Below, in pieces: positions 803 to 5,311 of a DNA stretch of 5,538 bases. Source of the DNA: Alphaproteobacteria bacterium. GTDB taxonomy: Bacteria > Pseudomonadota > Alphaproteobacteria > Rhodobacterales > Rhodobacteraceae. Under the pieces are notes generated by a model that saw only the letters and a program-made list of their open reading frames with translations, was not told where the DNA came from and searched no databases. The translations under genes were made by a program, and so were the position numbers. Location of the stretch: NCBI GenBank assembly GCA_030424705.1, contig JAUHWJ010000168.1, forward strand, positions 1-5,538, in the 5' to 3' direction. How positions within the stretch are numbered: position 1 is the first letter of the stretch; every line of letters begins with the position of its first letter.

Positions 803-1005
803 TGCTGTTCTCCGATGCTGATCGCCGTCGCCTCGCCCTCTCCGAGCGAAATCCATCGCTCCGCCGCCACCTGATCGACCGGCGTCCGGCCCCAGGCCGC
901 GAGTCCGAACTGGTTGTCGTCGCCGATCGCGATCACGACGACGCGCTTCGCCCGGAGGTCGAGCCCGATGGTCTCTGCGGCGGCGGGGCTGATGGCCTTC
1001 ATCAT
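799..1005 (-). CDS. Small hypothetical protein, 68 residues
   Basis: Unrecognised. The sequence has a strand-like hydrophobic core (KRVVVIAIGDDNQFGLAAWG, residues 20-39) followed by a helix (TPVDQVAAERW) and a second short strand, suggesting a small alpha/beta protein. No cysteine, membrane span or catalytic motif is visible. Two adjacent ATG codons (1005 and 1002) are possible starts: the first overlaps the DUF1376-like stop by 4 nt, while the second has the better distance from GGAG in CGGAGAATGATG. It overlaps the following gene by 4 nt (GTGA). This coupling on both sides is the main evidence that it is a real gene. Confidence 0.7.
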   Translation of the reverse strand: MMKAISPAAAETIGLDLRAKRVVVIAIGDDNQFGLAAWGRTPVDQVAAERWISLGEGEATAISIGEQQ

Positions 1006-1643
1006 TCTCCGAGGTCTCCCTGCATCAGCGGAATGAGGCCGCCCTGGGCGTCCTCCATCTCCATCTGGTGAACGATCTGCCGGGCGAGCCGCGCATCCGA
1101 CTTGCCCTTTCCGTGCAGCTCCATGCGGGTCATGAACTCGCGGACCATGAGCGGATCGTCGACCATCCGGCGCGGAGCCAGCGCGCCGCTCATCTGGCGC
1201 CTGGCCGAACGCACGGCGCGGGCGTGCTCGGCGGCGAGGCGGCGCGCGGCGCCGTCCGTCATCGCCTCGGTGATGTCGAGCGCGACGGTGGTGACGAAGG
1301 GATGCGCGAGACGCCGCTCCTTCCGGCCGTCCTCATCGGTCACCATGATCGGCCGCCACTTGTGCATGATCTCCGGCAGGCGACGCTCGAAGGCGTCGAC
1401 GCGCCCGTCGAAAAGGGCCAGCCTCCGGAGCTCGTGCTTGTCGTCTGGCAGCGTGCCGATGGGGTCGCATCGGAGCGAGGCGAGCCAGAGGTTCATCGCG
1501 TAGAAACCGATCTCCGGCGCGACCTTCCGCCAGAACGACGACTCGAAGAGCTGCGAGATGTAGACCGGCGCCCAATGCAGGTTCGGGAACCGCATCCCCT
1601 TCTTGAGGGGATAGACGTCGCCGAGCTCCGTCTCGATCTTCAT
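1002..1643 (-). CDS. DUF1376-like (YdaU-type) phage replication protein
   Basis: A 213-residue protein. Residues about 23-125 resemble DUF1376, found in phage and prophage replication regions, often in place of or fused to replication initiators. Visible family features are an aromatic start (HWAPVYISQLFESSFW), a helix PEIGFYAMNLWLASLR (43-58), the turn PIGTLPDDKHELRRLA (61-76), and a C-terminal strand/basic segment KERRLAHPFV (108-117). The remainder (125-213) is a charged helical tail with many Arg and Met residues (ARAVRSARRQ; HQMEMEDAQ) that could bind DNA or the partner ATPase. The ATG overlaps the AAA gene stop by 4 nt (ATGA), with a weak Shine-Dalgarno, so expression is probably coupled. 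A role in origin recognition or helicase recruitment is inferred from context. The family match was made by eye. Confidence 0.8.
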   Translation of the reverse strand: MKIETELGDVYPLKKGMRFPNLHWAPVYISQLFESSFWRKVAPEIGFYAMNLWLASLRCDPIGTLPDDKHELRRLALFDGRVDAFERRLPEIMHKWRPIMVTDEDGRKERRLAHPFVTTVALDITEAMTDGAARRLAAEHARAVRSARRQMSGALAPRRMVDDPLMVREFMTRMELHGKGKSDARLARQIVHQMEMEDAQGGLIPLMQGDLGE

Positions 1644-2587
1644 CGCCGTCTCAAGGGCGTGACGACGCCGGTGCGCGGCTCCGGGCCAGACTCCTCCGCG
1701 TCCTCAATGTCGGCTGCTAGCGGCAACGGCCAAGGGATCGTCGGGAGCGCAGGATCGTCGGCCCCGAGCGACCAGAGACGCGGGCGCCCGTCCCCGGGCG
1801 CGGGCTCCACGGCCGCGATGGCGCGGAGGATCGTCGCTTTTCTGTCAAGCTGCCAGCCGAGCTTCGGCCCGATCACGATGGACCGCTTCACGCTCTCGCA
1901 GAGGCCGCGGATCAATGACGGACTCGCGCCTTCGAGCGCGGCTGCGAGCGCGGCGAGGGACCGCTTCGGCAGTCCCCAGGGCGCCAGATACCGGGAAACG
2001 ATCTGGCGCCGCCCGCGCGCGTCGGGATGCGCGATCTCGATCTGGAGCTCGAACCGCCGCCAGATGGCCTTGTCGATCTGGCTGGCGTGGTTGCAGGCCG
2101 CGATCACGATCCCTGGATGGAGCTCTATCCGGGCCAGCATCGTCCCGATCATCTCGTTGTGCTGGAGGTCCGCGCCCTGCCGCGCATCAAGGCGCAGCGT
2201 TGCGAGGCTCTCGAACTCGTCGAAGAAGAGGACCAGCGGCGGATCGGTCCGCGCGAGATCGAAGACCGCGCCGAGGTTCTTGGCGCTCGCCCCGACCCAA
2301 CAATCGACGATGCGCTCCGGCCGGACGGCGGCGAGGGTCATGCCGAGCCTGGCGGCGAGATGATGCGCCAGCGTCGTTTTCCCGACGCCCGGCGGGCCGT
2401 GAAAGAGCGCGCGGCGGCGGGGCGTCAGCCCCGCCGTCTTGAGCTCCTCGCCGCTCCATATCTCCGTGAGCCATTCGGTCAGCGCGCCGGAGACGGAGCG
2501 CGACAGCACCGGCTCGATCGCCTCGGAAGGCTCAAGGAGATCGGCATAGGCCGAGAGGCCGCCGGGTCGGGAGACCATGCGCGCCAT
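1640..2587 (-). CDS. Classic AAA-clade ATPase, possible helicase loader or unfoldase
   Basis: A 315-residue AAA ATPase. Walker A is GPPGVGKT (64-71), Walker B is LVLFFDEF (118-125, D123/E124), sensor 1 is N166 in VIAACNHAS, and the arginine-finger region is WRRFE (R177/R178). CWVGASAKNLGAVF (96-109) carries an aromatic-hydrophobic-Gly pore-loop pattern (W97-V98-G99), as in FtsH, Cdc48 and Vps4 proteins, rather than a DnaC-like loader. SPSLIRGLCESVKR (222-235) fits the small alpha-helical lid. There is no HEXXH protease motif and no membrane segment, so it is a cytoplasmic ATPase without a built-in protease. The ATG directly abuts the previous stop (TGAATG) with GAGGA 4 nt upstream. It overlaps the DUF1376-like gene by 4 nt, suggesting they work together in replication initiation or remodelling. 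An internal ATG at residue 4 is an alternative start. Confidence 0.9.
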   Translation of the reverse strand: MARMVSRPGGLSAYADLLEPSEAIEPVLSRSVSGALTEWLTEIWSGEELKTAGLTPRRRALFHGPPGVGKTTLAHHLAARLGMTLAAVRPERIVDCWVGASAKNLGAVFDLARTDPPLVLFFDEFESLATLRLDARQGADLQHNEMIGTMLARIELHPGIVIAACNHASQIDKAIWRRFELQIEIAHPDARGRRQIVSRYLAPWGLPKRSLAALAAALEGASPSLIRGLCESVKRSIVIGPKLGWQLDRKATILRAIAAVEPAPGDGRPRLWSLGADDPALPTIPWPLPLAADIEDAEESGPEPRTGVVTPLRRR

Positions 2588-3346
2588 TCAGTCCTCGTCG
2601 TCGTCTTCGGCGCCGCTCTCGAGGCGCCAGCCCATGTCCCATTTCGGGCGGCGCGGATCGTTATGCGGGAAGGGATTGGCGATGATCGGGCGGTCCTGCC
2701 GGAACGCCTGGCGCCCCGCCTCTTCGGCCTCGTCCTCGGACATGCCGGCGACCGCCGGATCGAGCTCCTTGCCCTTCTTCTTCCGCCGCTTCGGCACGGC
2801 GCCCTCCGCCGGCTCCATCGCCTCGGGCGGCGGCTCGTCGTCTCCGAGCGCGCCCTCGATGGTCCCGATGTCGCCGCTCGCGGTGCGGAAGATCGTGACG
2901 GTCCGCCCCTGCACGGTGACCTGGATGGAGCCCTCGTTCGGCGCCAGCTGTTTCAGGGCCTCGACGACGCTGTCCATCGCGTTCTTGTCGACGCCGGCGT
3001 TGTTCACATAGGCGAAGAGCGGAAGATCGCCCGTTCGCATCCCCATGGCGCCGAGGTAGAGATCGCACATCGTCTCCTCCTCCTGGCGTTCGCTCGGAGA
3101 TTTCTTGCGCATCTTGATGAGCCAGCGGACGTATTTGACGTCGAAGCCGCGCGAGGACATGGAGGCGTAGATCGACCTGATGTGGTCGGCGAGATCGTCC
3201 TTCTCCGACTGCGCGCGTTCGATCGCGTCGATGAAGGTCCGGAGCTCCTTCGCATGGAGCCGGTTCGACGTGTTCGGCGGCGGCGCCGGCTCGCCCGGAG
3301 GCGGTTTCCCGCCCGCCTTCTTGTCCTCGACGACGTCGTCCTTCAT
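2588..3346 (-). CDS. GapR-like (DUF2312) protein with C-terminal RMF-like domain
   Basis: A 252-residue multidomain protein. Residues about 30-103 match GapR/DUF2312: a helix ELRTFIDAIERAQSEKDDLA, then IRSIYASMSSRGFDVKYVRWLI, then SERQEEETMCDLYLGAMGM. GapR of Caulobacter is a nucleoid-associated tetramer that binds overtwisted DNA near forks. Residues about 108-166 form a second, strand-rich region (SIQVTVQGRTVTIFRT) that I cannot name. A Pro/acidic and basic linker (168-195, with KRRKKKGK) leads to residues about 203-243, which resemble ribosome modulation factor: EEAGRQAF, NPF at 224-226, and WDMGW at 236-240, compare the CPY and WLGGW of E. coli RMF. The tail is acidic (EDDDED). A Pro-rich leader (11-24) precedes the GapR part. 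The ATG overlaps the RusA stop by 4 nt (ATGA), with AGGA about 9 nt upstream. The GapR assignment is firm; the RMF one is by motif only. Confidence 0.85.
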   Translation of the reverse strand: MKDDVVEDKKAGGKPPPGEPAPPPNTSNRLHAKELRTFIDAIERAQSEKDDLADHIRSIYASMSSRGFDVKYVRWLIKMRKKSPSERQEEETMCDLYLGAMGMRTGDLPLFAYVNNAGVDKNAMDSVVEALKQLAPNEGSIQVTVQGRTVTIFRTASGDIGTIEGALGDDEPPPEAMEPAEGAVPKRRKKKGKELDPAVAGMSEDEAEEAGRQAFRQDRPIIANPFPHNDPRRPKWDMGWRLESGAEDDDED

Positions 3347-3927
3347 GGCGCGATCCTTTCGGGTTCGGGATCGGTGCGGCGGGGAACGATGAGGCCGAAG
3401 CCGACGGGCGCGGCGATCCAGCCGATCACGAAGCCGCGGACGTTCCGGTCGTCCTCCATGAGGCGCATCTCGACGGCGGCGTCGACATAGGCCTTCACGA
3501 CGTTGTCGACGTCCGCGCCGCTCTCGGGCGCGAGGAGGCCGAGCTCCACCGGACCCCTGACCATCACGCGCGGTCCGGCCTGCATGATCGCGATGCACTG
3601 GCGATTGCGCCACGCCCGGTATTCCGGGCTCTTCACGCGCCCGCCGCGCTCCCTCCCCGGCAGGCCGGCTTTCAGCATCTCCTGCGCCTCCGCCCGCGTC
3701 AGAACGCGCGTCTTGCCTCGTCCCTGGCCGACGACGGTGGCGGCGACGCCCGCCGCTCCCGGCGACGCGGCGCGCGCCGTGTTCAGGAAGGCGTTGTTGA
3801 GCGAGAAGGGCTCGATGAGCGGAAACGCCGTCCCGTCGAGTCGCCGCGCTGTGATCCATCCGCCTGCGACCGCGAGAAGCGATCCGGGCGCCGCCGCCGC
3901 CGCCTCCTCGAGAGCGGCGGGGTCCAT
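3343..3927 (-). CDS. RusA-like Holliday junction resolvase
   Basis: A 194-residue member of the RusA endodeoxyribonuclease family, which cuts four-way DNA junctions as a metal-dependent dimer. The catalytic block is DVDNVVKAYVDAAVE at residues 139-153, then EDDRNV at 159-164. D139, D141, K145 and D160 reproduce the spacing of E. coli RusA D70, D72, K76 and D91 as I recall that sequence. The N-terminal family motif appears as EPFSLNNAFLNTA (39-51), and KSPEYRAWRNR (99-109) matches the substrate-side helix. The protein is longer than the roughly 120-residue E. coli enzyme: about 38 residues precede the first motif, and a basic insert (about 52-98) separates it from the helix. The ATG lies 1 nt after the previous stop with no good Shine-Dalgarno, so translation is probably coupled. 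Role: resolving branched phage replication or recombination intermediates. Confidence 0.9.
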   Translation of the reverse strand: MDPAALEEAAAAAPGSLLAVAGGWITARRLDGTAFPLIEPFSLNNAFLNTARAASPGAAGVAATVVGQGRGKTRVLTRAEAQEMLKAGLPGRERGGRVKSPEYRAWRNRQCIAIMQAGPRVMVRGPVELGLLAPESGADVDNVVKAYVDAAVEMRLMEDDRNVRGFVIGWIAAPVGFGLIVPRRTDPEPERIAP

Positions 3928-3928
3928 G

Positions 3929-4540
3929 TCAGGCGAGGTCGCCGAAGACGAGCTCGGTGATTGTCCTGGGCGGCGCCAGCGGCTTGCTCGGCGCCGCGTC
4001 GAACGCCTGTCCGAGGACATAGGCCTCCAGTCGATCCGCGCGGCGGCGGAGCTCGTCATGGAACGCCTGCGGGTTCAGCGCGTCGTAGTAGATCGCTTCG
4101 GGCATGTGCCCGTGCAGCCAGTCCCAAAGATCGTCCGTGTCGAGCCACGGCGCGCCTTCCATCACGTCGGCGCAGAGGAGGCCGCTCCGGAAATTGTTGA
4201 TCGTGCGGAGTCCCGCTTGGTCGTCAGGGTGAACCTGTCCGACCGAGAGCTTGATCGGGGCAAGGGACTGATGCGGACGAAAGCCGAAGGTCTTCGCCAT
4301 CACGGCTCCCGAAAGGCAGACATGGCACTTGAAGCCGACGCCCGCCTCGCCCGCCTCGGCGATCTCCCAGGCCGACGCCGAAAGGCCTTCGATGCGCGGC
4401 TCATGCCAGGTGCGCATGTCGATCACGTAGCGCGGGTCCGCCTCGCAGAGCGCGAGGTCGCGCAGCGCGTGACGGATCAGGAGCCAAGGCTCGCGCGGCA
4501 GGATGCGCCCCGGAAGCTCGGTGCGAAAGACGTCGAACAT
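3929..4540 (-). CDS. Uncharacterised phage-type protein with CxxC motif
   Basis: A 203-residue protein of unknown function. The clearest motif is KCHVCLSGAVMAKTF at residues 71-85, with a CxxC at C72/C75 running into a small-residue helix. From memory, similar C-x-VCLxGAVMA motifs occur in uncharacterised proteins of proteobacterial phages, where the segment is followed, as here (residues 109-121, AGLRTINNFRSGL), by a helix with an INxxRxG pattern. The rest is rich in Trp and acidic residues (WLDTDDLWDWLHG, 132-144), then a charged helix (163-177). Only one CxxC is present, so a zinc ribbon would need other ligands or a dimer. The ATG start has GGAG 6 nt upstream (4550-4547) and follows the previous stop by 10 nt. 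Its stop is 1 nt before the RusA-like start, suggesting translational coupling. Confidence 0.8.
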   Translation of the reverse strand: MFDVFRTELPGRILPREPWLLIRHALRDLALCEADPRYVIDMRTWHEPRIEGLSASAWEIAEAGEAGVGFKCHVCLSGAVMAKTFGFRPHQSLAPIKLSVGQVHPDDQAGLRTINNFRSGLLCADVMEGAPWLDTDDLWDWLHGHMPEAIYYDALNPQAFHDELRRRADRLEAYVLGQAFDAAPSKPLAPPRTITELVFGDLA

Positions 4541-4966: not shown

Positions 4967-5311
4967 TCAAGCGTCGGCTTTCGTGCGGCTGGAGCGCCTC
5001 GCCGGCGCAGCGGCGGGCGCAGCGGCAGGCGCGTCGACTGGAGCCTCCTCGGCGACCGGACGCGGCTGGATGCGGCGGCTGTCGATCCATTTCCGCACGT
5101 CTTCCGGCCGGAACCGGAGCATATTGCTGAAATCGTAGCAGGGCGGGCCCTCGCCCCGCCGGACCATCCTGCGGATCGTCTCCTTGTTCATCATCACGAG
5201 CGCCGCGACCTGCTCGGTCGTCAGCCACTCCGCGGCCGGCGCGTCGGGATCGACGACGGCGTCCGATTCGAGATCGTCATCGGTCTGAGCGACAATCGCT
5301 TTCCTCGCCAT
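4967..5311 (-). CDS. Excisionase/MerR-type helix-turn-helix DNA-binding protein
   Basis: A 114-residue small DNA-binding protein. Residues about 29-80 form a compact winged helix-turn-helix of the excisionase (HTH_17) type: LTTEQVAALV begins the first helix, NKETIRRMVRRGEGPP covers the recognition helix and turn, and MLRFRPEDVRKWIDSR is the strand plus final helix typical of this family. The N-terminus (residues 8-27) is acidic, and the C-terminus (residues 86-114) is an Ala/Pro-rich tail ending in basic residues. Being first in the operon, directly behind the promoter, it could be an excisionase or recombination directionality factor, an autoregulator of the operon, or a replication-control protein; the sequence does not separate these. 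The ATG start is supported by a strong GGGGAGG. The next gene begins after a 14-nt gap. Confidence 0.85.
   Translation of the reverse strand: MARKAIVAQTDDDLESDAVVDPDAPAAEWLTTEQVAALVMMNKETIRRMVRRGEGPPCYDFSNMLRFRPEDVRKWIDSRRIQPRPVAEEAPVDAPAAAPAAAPARRSSRTKADA

Follow-up and report, generated by a model that had tools for sequence, protein, structure and literature searches.

What purpose is served by joining a DNA-binding domain of the GapR type and a domain that resembles ribosome modulation factor (RMF) in a single polypeptide? The question is raised by an open reading frame (ORF) on a whole alphaproteobacterial contig of 5,538 bases, referred to here as the window, which comes from an assembly of 654 contigs (3.03 Mb; 66.6% complete). 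The original prediction for this ORF proposed that a phage early protein holding both modules could link replication state to host translation shutdown or, as an alternative, that the RMF-like fold had been reused for another partner.

Architecture of the fusion gene and its gene run

The fusion ORF does occupy positions 2588 to 3346, where it had been placed, and is read from the minus strand, with its start at 3346 and its stop codon at 2590-2588; the other features of the window are collected in Table 1. It belongs to a tight run of genes on the same strand: the end of a RusA-like gene and the start of the fusion gene share an ATGA overlap (3343-3346), and an ATGA overlap likewise joins the AAA+ ATPase gene to the 213-aa gene (1002-1643) downstream of it. 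The RusA-like gene is given from its likely start, the ORF itself opening at 4059. The 213-aa product returned no Pfam match at an E value of ≤1 and no PADLOC match at an E value of ≤0.001; by eye, it may resemble phage replication initiators of the DUF1376 type. No virion gene was recognized among the window ORFs scanned, and the window is likely to be phage DNA, a reading made because the relatives of the fusion gene are phage sequences. An artifact created by fusing two frames is rejected, as dozens of contigs carry this gene as one ORF; at two loci, L008 and L066, its reading frame is broken, and the pieces were scored apart and not mended.

Table 1. Coordinates of features in the window
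Feature	Position	Strand	Basis or remark
GapR-RMF-like fusion gene	2588..3346	minus	252 aa; stop codon included; ORF and homologues
GapR DNA-binding domain, residues 32-102	3041..3253	minus	Pfam PF10073 match and PDB chains
Middle domain, residues 104-166	2849..3037	minus	predicted helices and three strands; no known family
Linker with basic stretch, residues 167-203	2738..2848	minus	poorly predicted
RMF/CrpP-like domain, residues 204-246	2609..2737	minus	GRQA...NPFP...RRPKWDMGWR; predicted helical hairpin
TGAATG: fusion stop codon, then at once ATG of AAA+ gene	2585..2590	minus	read from sequence
AAA+ ATPase gene, 315 aa	1640..2587	minus	PF00004, E 2e-25; IetA models, residues 18-241
Walker A of AAA+ protein, GPPGVGKTT, residues 64-72	2372..2398	minus	sequence
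PRLW...PWP C-terminal motif of AAA+ protein, residues 269-287	1727..1783	minus	typical of fusion-paired ATPases; proposed docking site
RusA-like gene, upstream of fusion	3343..3927	minus	PF05866, E 0.0012, below cut-off
213-aa gene downstream of AAA+ gene	1002..1643	minus	family not recognized
HTH_17/excisionase-type gene	4967..5311	minus	near head of same-strand gene run; Pfam

Identity of the domains

A close match to GapR/DUF2312 had been read at residues 30-103, and the profile search bore this out: PF10073 aligned with residues 32-102 over model positions 2-72 of 72 (E 7.9e-23; 80.3 bits against a cut-off of 22.6), solved GapR chains in the PDB matched the fusion protein at E 1.8e-14 and weaker, and PF10073 was found in 49/49 fusion-family proteins at an E value of ≤0.05. 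Excerpts of PMC7373187 describe a structural pair, E28-R65, and six DNA-contact lysines in GapR. The pair is invariant in 49/49 family members, falling at E43/R80 in the window protein, and lysine or arginine occupies the positions of K34 (40/49), K42 (30/49), K49 (41/49), K56 (30/49), K59 (30/49), and K66 (25/49); in the window protein, five of these six are basic (K49, R57, K71, R74, and K81), S64 being the exception. Its predicted helices (residues 32-65, 70-81, and 84-100) agree in order with the one long helix and two shorter ones given for GapR in excerpts of PMC6853979. Thus, the DNA-binding domain is shared with the nucleoid-associated protein of Caulobacter (PF10073/DUF2312); GapR itself is a protein of about 90 aa, whereas in the fusion it is joined to two further domains and is accompanied by an ATPase gene that was seen beside 0/29 GapR loci of other genomes.

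The RMF identity, read originally at residues 203-243, is below threshold in the window protein and solid across the family. In the window protein, Pfam RMF (PF04957) matched residues 205-241 at E 0.003, with 18 bits against a cut-off of 27.9; the NCBIfam model Rmf_CrpP_fam reached E 1.8e-4 with the full protein and 1.3e-5 with the domain alone, and the bit scores of the domain alone (24.7 against 28 and 19.3 against 40) lay under the curated cut-offs of the Rmf/CrpP models NF041886/NF041887. The match is beyond chance, because it is repeated throughout the family: at an E value of ≤0.05, Rmf_like_phage (NF041887) was found in 46/54 family domains (best, 1.3e-7), Rmf_CrpP_fam (NF041886) in 39/54 (best, 1.9e-6), and Pfam RMF in 18/49 proteins (best, 7.8e-7). 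The two NCBIfam families, whose models span 43 (NF041887) and 39 (NF041886) positions, are the best sequence match of the phage domain, which here forms part of a fusion. Comparison of the domain profile with gammaproteobacterial RMF by hhalign was weak, both with 14 sequences (probability, 4%; E 0.01) and with 54 (18.5%; E 0.0013), and the profile retrieved no RMF chain from PDB sequences up to E 10. The model of the full protein had a pTM of only 0.31, and neither GapR nor RMF was among the best 50 entries of each structure list obtained with it, an absence that carries little weight at such a score. The C-terminal domain was therefore predicted by itself, and the structural check that had been proposed for it gave a helical hairpin with the RMF fold, for which the top match among 350,542 PDB chains was E. 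coli RMF within a hibernating ribosome (TM, 0.63/0.69; Foldseek E of only 3.3). Of 25 columns invariant across 22 aligned relatives, 15 fall in residues 207-245, so the RMF-like domain has not been lost in close homologues; one relative with a degenerate copy (L067) was encountered among the contigs examined. The GapR-RMF fusion is real.

Between the two lies the strand-bearing region that had been left unnamed. Residues 104-166 form a conserved stretch predicted to contain helix and three strands, modeled with moderate confidence (pLDDT block means of 55-75), and three copies scanned alone gave no significant Pfam match. The same middle domain lies after GapR in Bradyrhizobium phage ppBeUSDA76-1 (L004), a phage in which the RMF-like domain was not found, and it was undetected in seven divergent viral contigs with GapR, the RMF-like domain, and the AAA+ gene. 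Foldseek rows for the full model included ribosome-associated factor Y/hibernation promoting factor domains (3lyv, 6t7o, and 3ka5) at nonsignificant E values of 0.55-2.3; these might concern the middle domain and are possibly due to chance. In the linker that follows, the mean pLDDT fell to 55, 44, and 49 for residues 161-170, 171-180, and 181-190 of the predicted model, respectively.

Distribution of the fusion

The protein search returned 11 proteins, including that of the window. Among 50,697 phage records, 151 matched the fusion, and 11 did so over at least 80% of the query; all 11 are phages of Rhodobacter capsulatus YW1, with 40 of the 151 matches listed. The scan of genome contigs yielded 4 loci. 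A first scan of viral contigs with the single window protein confirmed no relative, and alignments were therefore used, the first of which retrieved 8 loci, that of the AAA+ protein 58, and that of the RMF-like domain 39, on 62 distinct contigs, a count that differs from the number of independent events (L100/L101 and L105/L106 are near-identical pairs). The link to phages that had been assumed is supported, and the search for other proteins with the same domain order, suggested at the outset, found it in dozens of viral contigs as well as in isolated R. capsulatus phages. The fusion matched 270/385 host-class genomes at an E value of ≤1e-10; among the matches listed, that of the window is the only one to extend into the RMF-like part, and the idea of a plain host GapR gene was rejected on this ground. 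No RMF-like domain, middle domain, or ATPase was found at the 29 GapR loci of other genomes, inspected mostly over 1.5 kb per side, and none of the 64 matching plasmid records covered more than 80% of the protein. The full module looks mainly viral, whereas GapR alone is widespread in cellular genomes.

A phage-borne GapR gene is also described in excerpts of PMC12185513, where it is an auxiliary gene of Erythrobacter phage R34L1 and the excerpts mention neither a second domain nor an ATPase. The main text of the R. capsulatus phage paper (PMC8601537) mentions neither GapR nor FtsK, and within the literature searched, which lay outside most subscription journals, GapR was combined with "ribosome modulation factor" in a single paper, which deals with a cell cycle regulatory network.

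Neighboring genes were compared across 60 loci, with one representative scanned per gene cluster: clusters whose representatives were S24-type repressors and DUF5131 proteins were each shared by 19 loci, several clusters comprised DNA methyltransferases, and a GcrA cluster was present in 8 loci. From 53 loci, 201 downstream ORFs were picked by a simple rule and 120 of them were scanned; MT-A70 (15) and DUF5131 (8) lead the 25 of 33 families listed, among which replication families are few (AAA_25, DnaA-like HTH, HTH_36, Prim-Pol, and D5). To judge from these neighbors, the surroundings look like the early region of temperate phages. Genes for the GcrA cell cycle regulator lie near the module at L009:8894-9331 and L005:3209-4135, a possible link to the host cell cycle.

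Pairing with an AAA+ ATPase

The adjoining gene encodes an AAA+ protein that was matched by the PADLOC IetA models (E 4.8e-50), TRIP13 (E 2.5e-12), and NCBIfam IetA (E 1.5e-45; 155.9 bits against a cut-off of 510); its IstB match reached only E 0.27. Its AAA+ core aligns with IetA of the IetAS system, from which the window protein differs in its own C-terminal PxLW..WP tail and in having a GapR fusion as its neighbor in place of a protease: the flanking genes are those of the fusion and the 213-aa protein, and neither is the protease partner IetS. In 14/14 ATPases, the Walker A and B motifs, sensor 1, and the pair of arginines are preserved. The pore-loop position is aromatic in the same 14/14 and in 114 of the 115 sequences that the pattern could parse among 120 listed AAA+ homologues; in classic AAA proteins, a loop of this kind threads polypeptides. 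In one viral contig (3300036851_000172; L011:7852-8886), the AAA+ gene carries a 345-codon in-frame insert at Walker A with a match to LAGLIDADG_3 (E 1.7e-8), a feature suggestive of an intein within the ATP-binding loop.

The two genes were found together in most cases, whichever one was used to find the locus. Viral loci retrieved by ATPase patterns alone have an RMF-like domain upstream in 49/58 cases, and loci retrieved by RMF-like patterns alone have the ATPase downstream in 38/39, the 39th contig ending after the fusion gene; 36 of these 39 combine GapR, the RMF-like domain, and AAA+, and GapR is visible in 37, the other two stretches beginning inside the fusion gene with AAA+ present. 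Over all scans, made partly with an AAA+ alignment that was seeded from fusion-adjacent ATPases and so favors their clade, an AAA+ relative was present on 61 distinct contigs and was preceded by the RMF-like domain on 52, with a gap of ≤100 bases between the two matches in 43/52 and with GapR in 50/52. The nine contigs outside the 52 comprise L067, in which GapR is present and the RMF-like domain is degenerate; L068, which begins inside the ATPase; L071, which has a partial AAA+ relative and in which GapR was not found; and six with distant ATPases. The set of 11 phage records that carry the full fusion coincides with the set matching the AAA+ protein over at least 80%. The presence of the ATPase follows that of the RMF-like domain rather than that of GapR or the middle domain, because Bradyrhizobium phage ppBeUSDA76-1, with GapR and the middle domain, lacks the RMF-like domain and showed no AAA+ gene in 12.4 kb; because the 29 GapR loci of other genomes have neither; and because the seven contigs without a middle domain keep both.

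An RMF-like domain also forms the C-terminal end of the ATPase in four contigs (L011, L013, and L100 with its near-identical counterpart L101) and in 5 of the 120 listed AAA+ homologues. A tail motif, P-x-L-W and then W-P, fits the pattern in 49/52 partner ATPases and in 1/9 others, the one being L068, which has no upstream DNA; L064 and L071 are near-variants, and L067, the contig with the degenerate RMF-like domain, has lost the W-P.

The distant IetA-like phage ATPases that occur without a fusion (L070 and L072 to L076) had a C-terminal helix-turn-helix over the Pfam cut-off in two of four scanned. The fusion protein of Rhodobacter phage RcKvothe (L002:8326-9000), annotated as 441 aa, has two N-terminal FtsK gamma domains before GapR (PF09397; E 1.5e-28), and the N terminus in RcOceanus is nearly identical in sequence. 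What these arrangements share is an ATPase linked, in cis or in trans, to DNA binding.

RMF residues and the ribosome

Excerpts of PMC8126665 report that ribosome binding by RMF is lost when G16, C29, W40, or W44 is changed to alanine, that dimerization is nearly lost with alanine at R3, K5, R11, G23, P30, G43, or R45, and that deletion of the five N-terminal residues abolishes both; several of these residues are taken there as structural. The 54 phage domains do not keep the full set of these 11 positions, on which the formation of 100S particles by RMF depends. The equivalents of G16 (54/54), P30 (54/54), G43 (53/54), W44 (53/54), and R45 (47/54) are retained, and together with the predicted hairpin and the best PDB match they make up the likeness to RMF; the W40 position holds tryptophan in 34/54 and phenylalanine in 19/54. 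The C29 position is asparagine in 54/54 and cysteine in none, G23 is glycine in 11/54, and the positions of R3, K5, and R11 are basic in 0, 1, and 1 of 54. The mean net charge of the whole segment, tails included, is -4.8 in the 54 phage domains (range, -9 to +5) against +6.8 in 17 RMF proteins, and that of the aligned core is -0.5 against +1.4. Unlike RMF, the phage domain is part of a larger protein, acidic, without the basic arm, and linked to an AAA+ ATPase; the predicted RMF fold has been retained, and much of the rRNA-facing surface has not. A DGMG-type tail follows the domain in most homologues and is absent from the window protein. Pfam RMF was matched in only 1 of the 31 genomes searched (that of the window and 30 relatives), and in L018, a genome of the host's family, the match over the cut-off lay in a 97-aa open frame.

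These data bear on the proposal that the RMF-like domain binds ribosomes and so couples replication state to host translation shutdown. The retained core residues and the RMF chain as best structural match speak for it, whereas the substituted cysteine, the missing N-terminal basic residues, the acidic charge, and the near absence of Pfam RMF from the genomes searched speak against it; ribosome shutdown is not supported, because of these missing residues, the charge, and the 1/31 genomes, and we regard it as the least likely of the readings considered here. The alternative that was offered alongside it, reuse of the fold for another partner, agrees better with the data, and the obvious candidate for that partner is the product of the adjoining AAA+ gene, on which the original prediction was silent.

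Discussion

We suggest, with a confidence somewhat short of even, that the two genes form a phage module whose DNA-bound half is the fusion protein, and that the RMF-like domain of this protein docks the AAA+ ATPase encoded by the next gene. The GapR part would bind or encircle DNA as does GapR of Caulobacter, the RMF-like hairpin would serve protein contact in place of rRNA contact, and the docked ATPase may remodel or strip proteins on GapR-bound DNA, probably early in infection, given the replication and DNA modification genes nearby. TRIP13 and ClpX, which work with an adaptor, provide the comparison for such a module. RMF is not known to have a protein partner of the AAA+ kind in its action on the ribosome; docking would therefore be a new role for the fold. 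We favor docking because the two genes are paired from either side and the ATPase tracks the RMF-like domain, because the ATPase sometimes carries that domain itself, because the PxLW..WP tail is concentrated in the partner ATPases, because targeting to DNA recurs, through helix-turn-helix tails in cis and FtsK gamma domains on the fusion, and because the Walker motifs, sensor 1, arginines, and pore-loop aromatic are intact. Against it, gene adjacency can reflect nothing more than shared transcription, and the tail motif could be the signature of a clade; the distant, fusion-free AAA+ proteins are few (six contigs) and the AAA+ alignment was seeded beside fusions; L071 has a near-variant of the tail motif with no GapR found; and the window protein lacks the DGMG-type tail. 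A bolder form of the proposal, in which the RMF fold is a docking module that brings a protein-threading ATPase of the IetA/TRIP13 class to overtwisted, GapR-bound DNA in phages of Alphaproteobacteria, as a topology-guided remodeler brought in through the fusion in trans and helped in some phages by FtsK gamma domains, is doubtful.

The conserved pore-loop aromatic is also compatible with the fusion protein being a substrate, the ATPase taking the RMF-like tail as a tag and pulling GapR off the DNA, thereby setting the residence of GapR on the DNA of phage or host. Because GapR encloses the DNA, its release may call for an active process, and the RMF-like domain lies at the C terminus, with a DGMG-type end in most homologues; a folded domain of 43 residues is, however, large for a tag, and its occasional presence on the ATPase would be odd for one. 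We consider this reading unlikely. The pair might also be a device for starting replication, in which the fusion would mark the phage origin and the AAA+ protein would act as a helicase loader; loaders of the DnaC type are AAA+ proteins. The replication families noted beside some loci agree with this, but they are few among the neighbors found, and the best matches of the ATPase are PF00004, IetA, and TRIP13 models, not DnaC/IstB; we hold such a function to be rather improbable. The IetA matches could also speak for defense or superinfection exclusion, systems that phages do carry, with a DNA-sensing partner in place of the protease IetS. The NCBIfam IetA score is far under its cut-off, however, none of nine window ORFs showed a protease-domain match against Pfam, and replication and methylation genes lie close by in several loci, and this reading is improbable.

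If the docking proposal is correct, it would give a function to a gene pair that is labeled only "hypothetical protein" and "AAA-ATPase" in 11 Rhodobacter phage records, and the RMF/CrpP fold would be not only a ribosome factor but also a protein-contact module, which would bear on the role of CrpP-type proteins. The ATPase would then be one that is steered by DNA twist. The pair is carried by isolated phages of R. capsulatus and is thus accessible to experiment.
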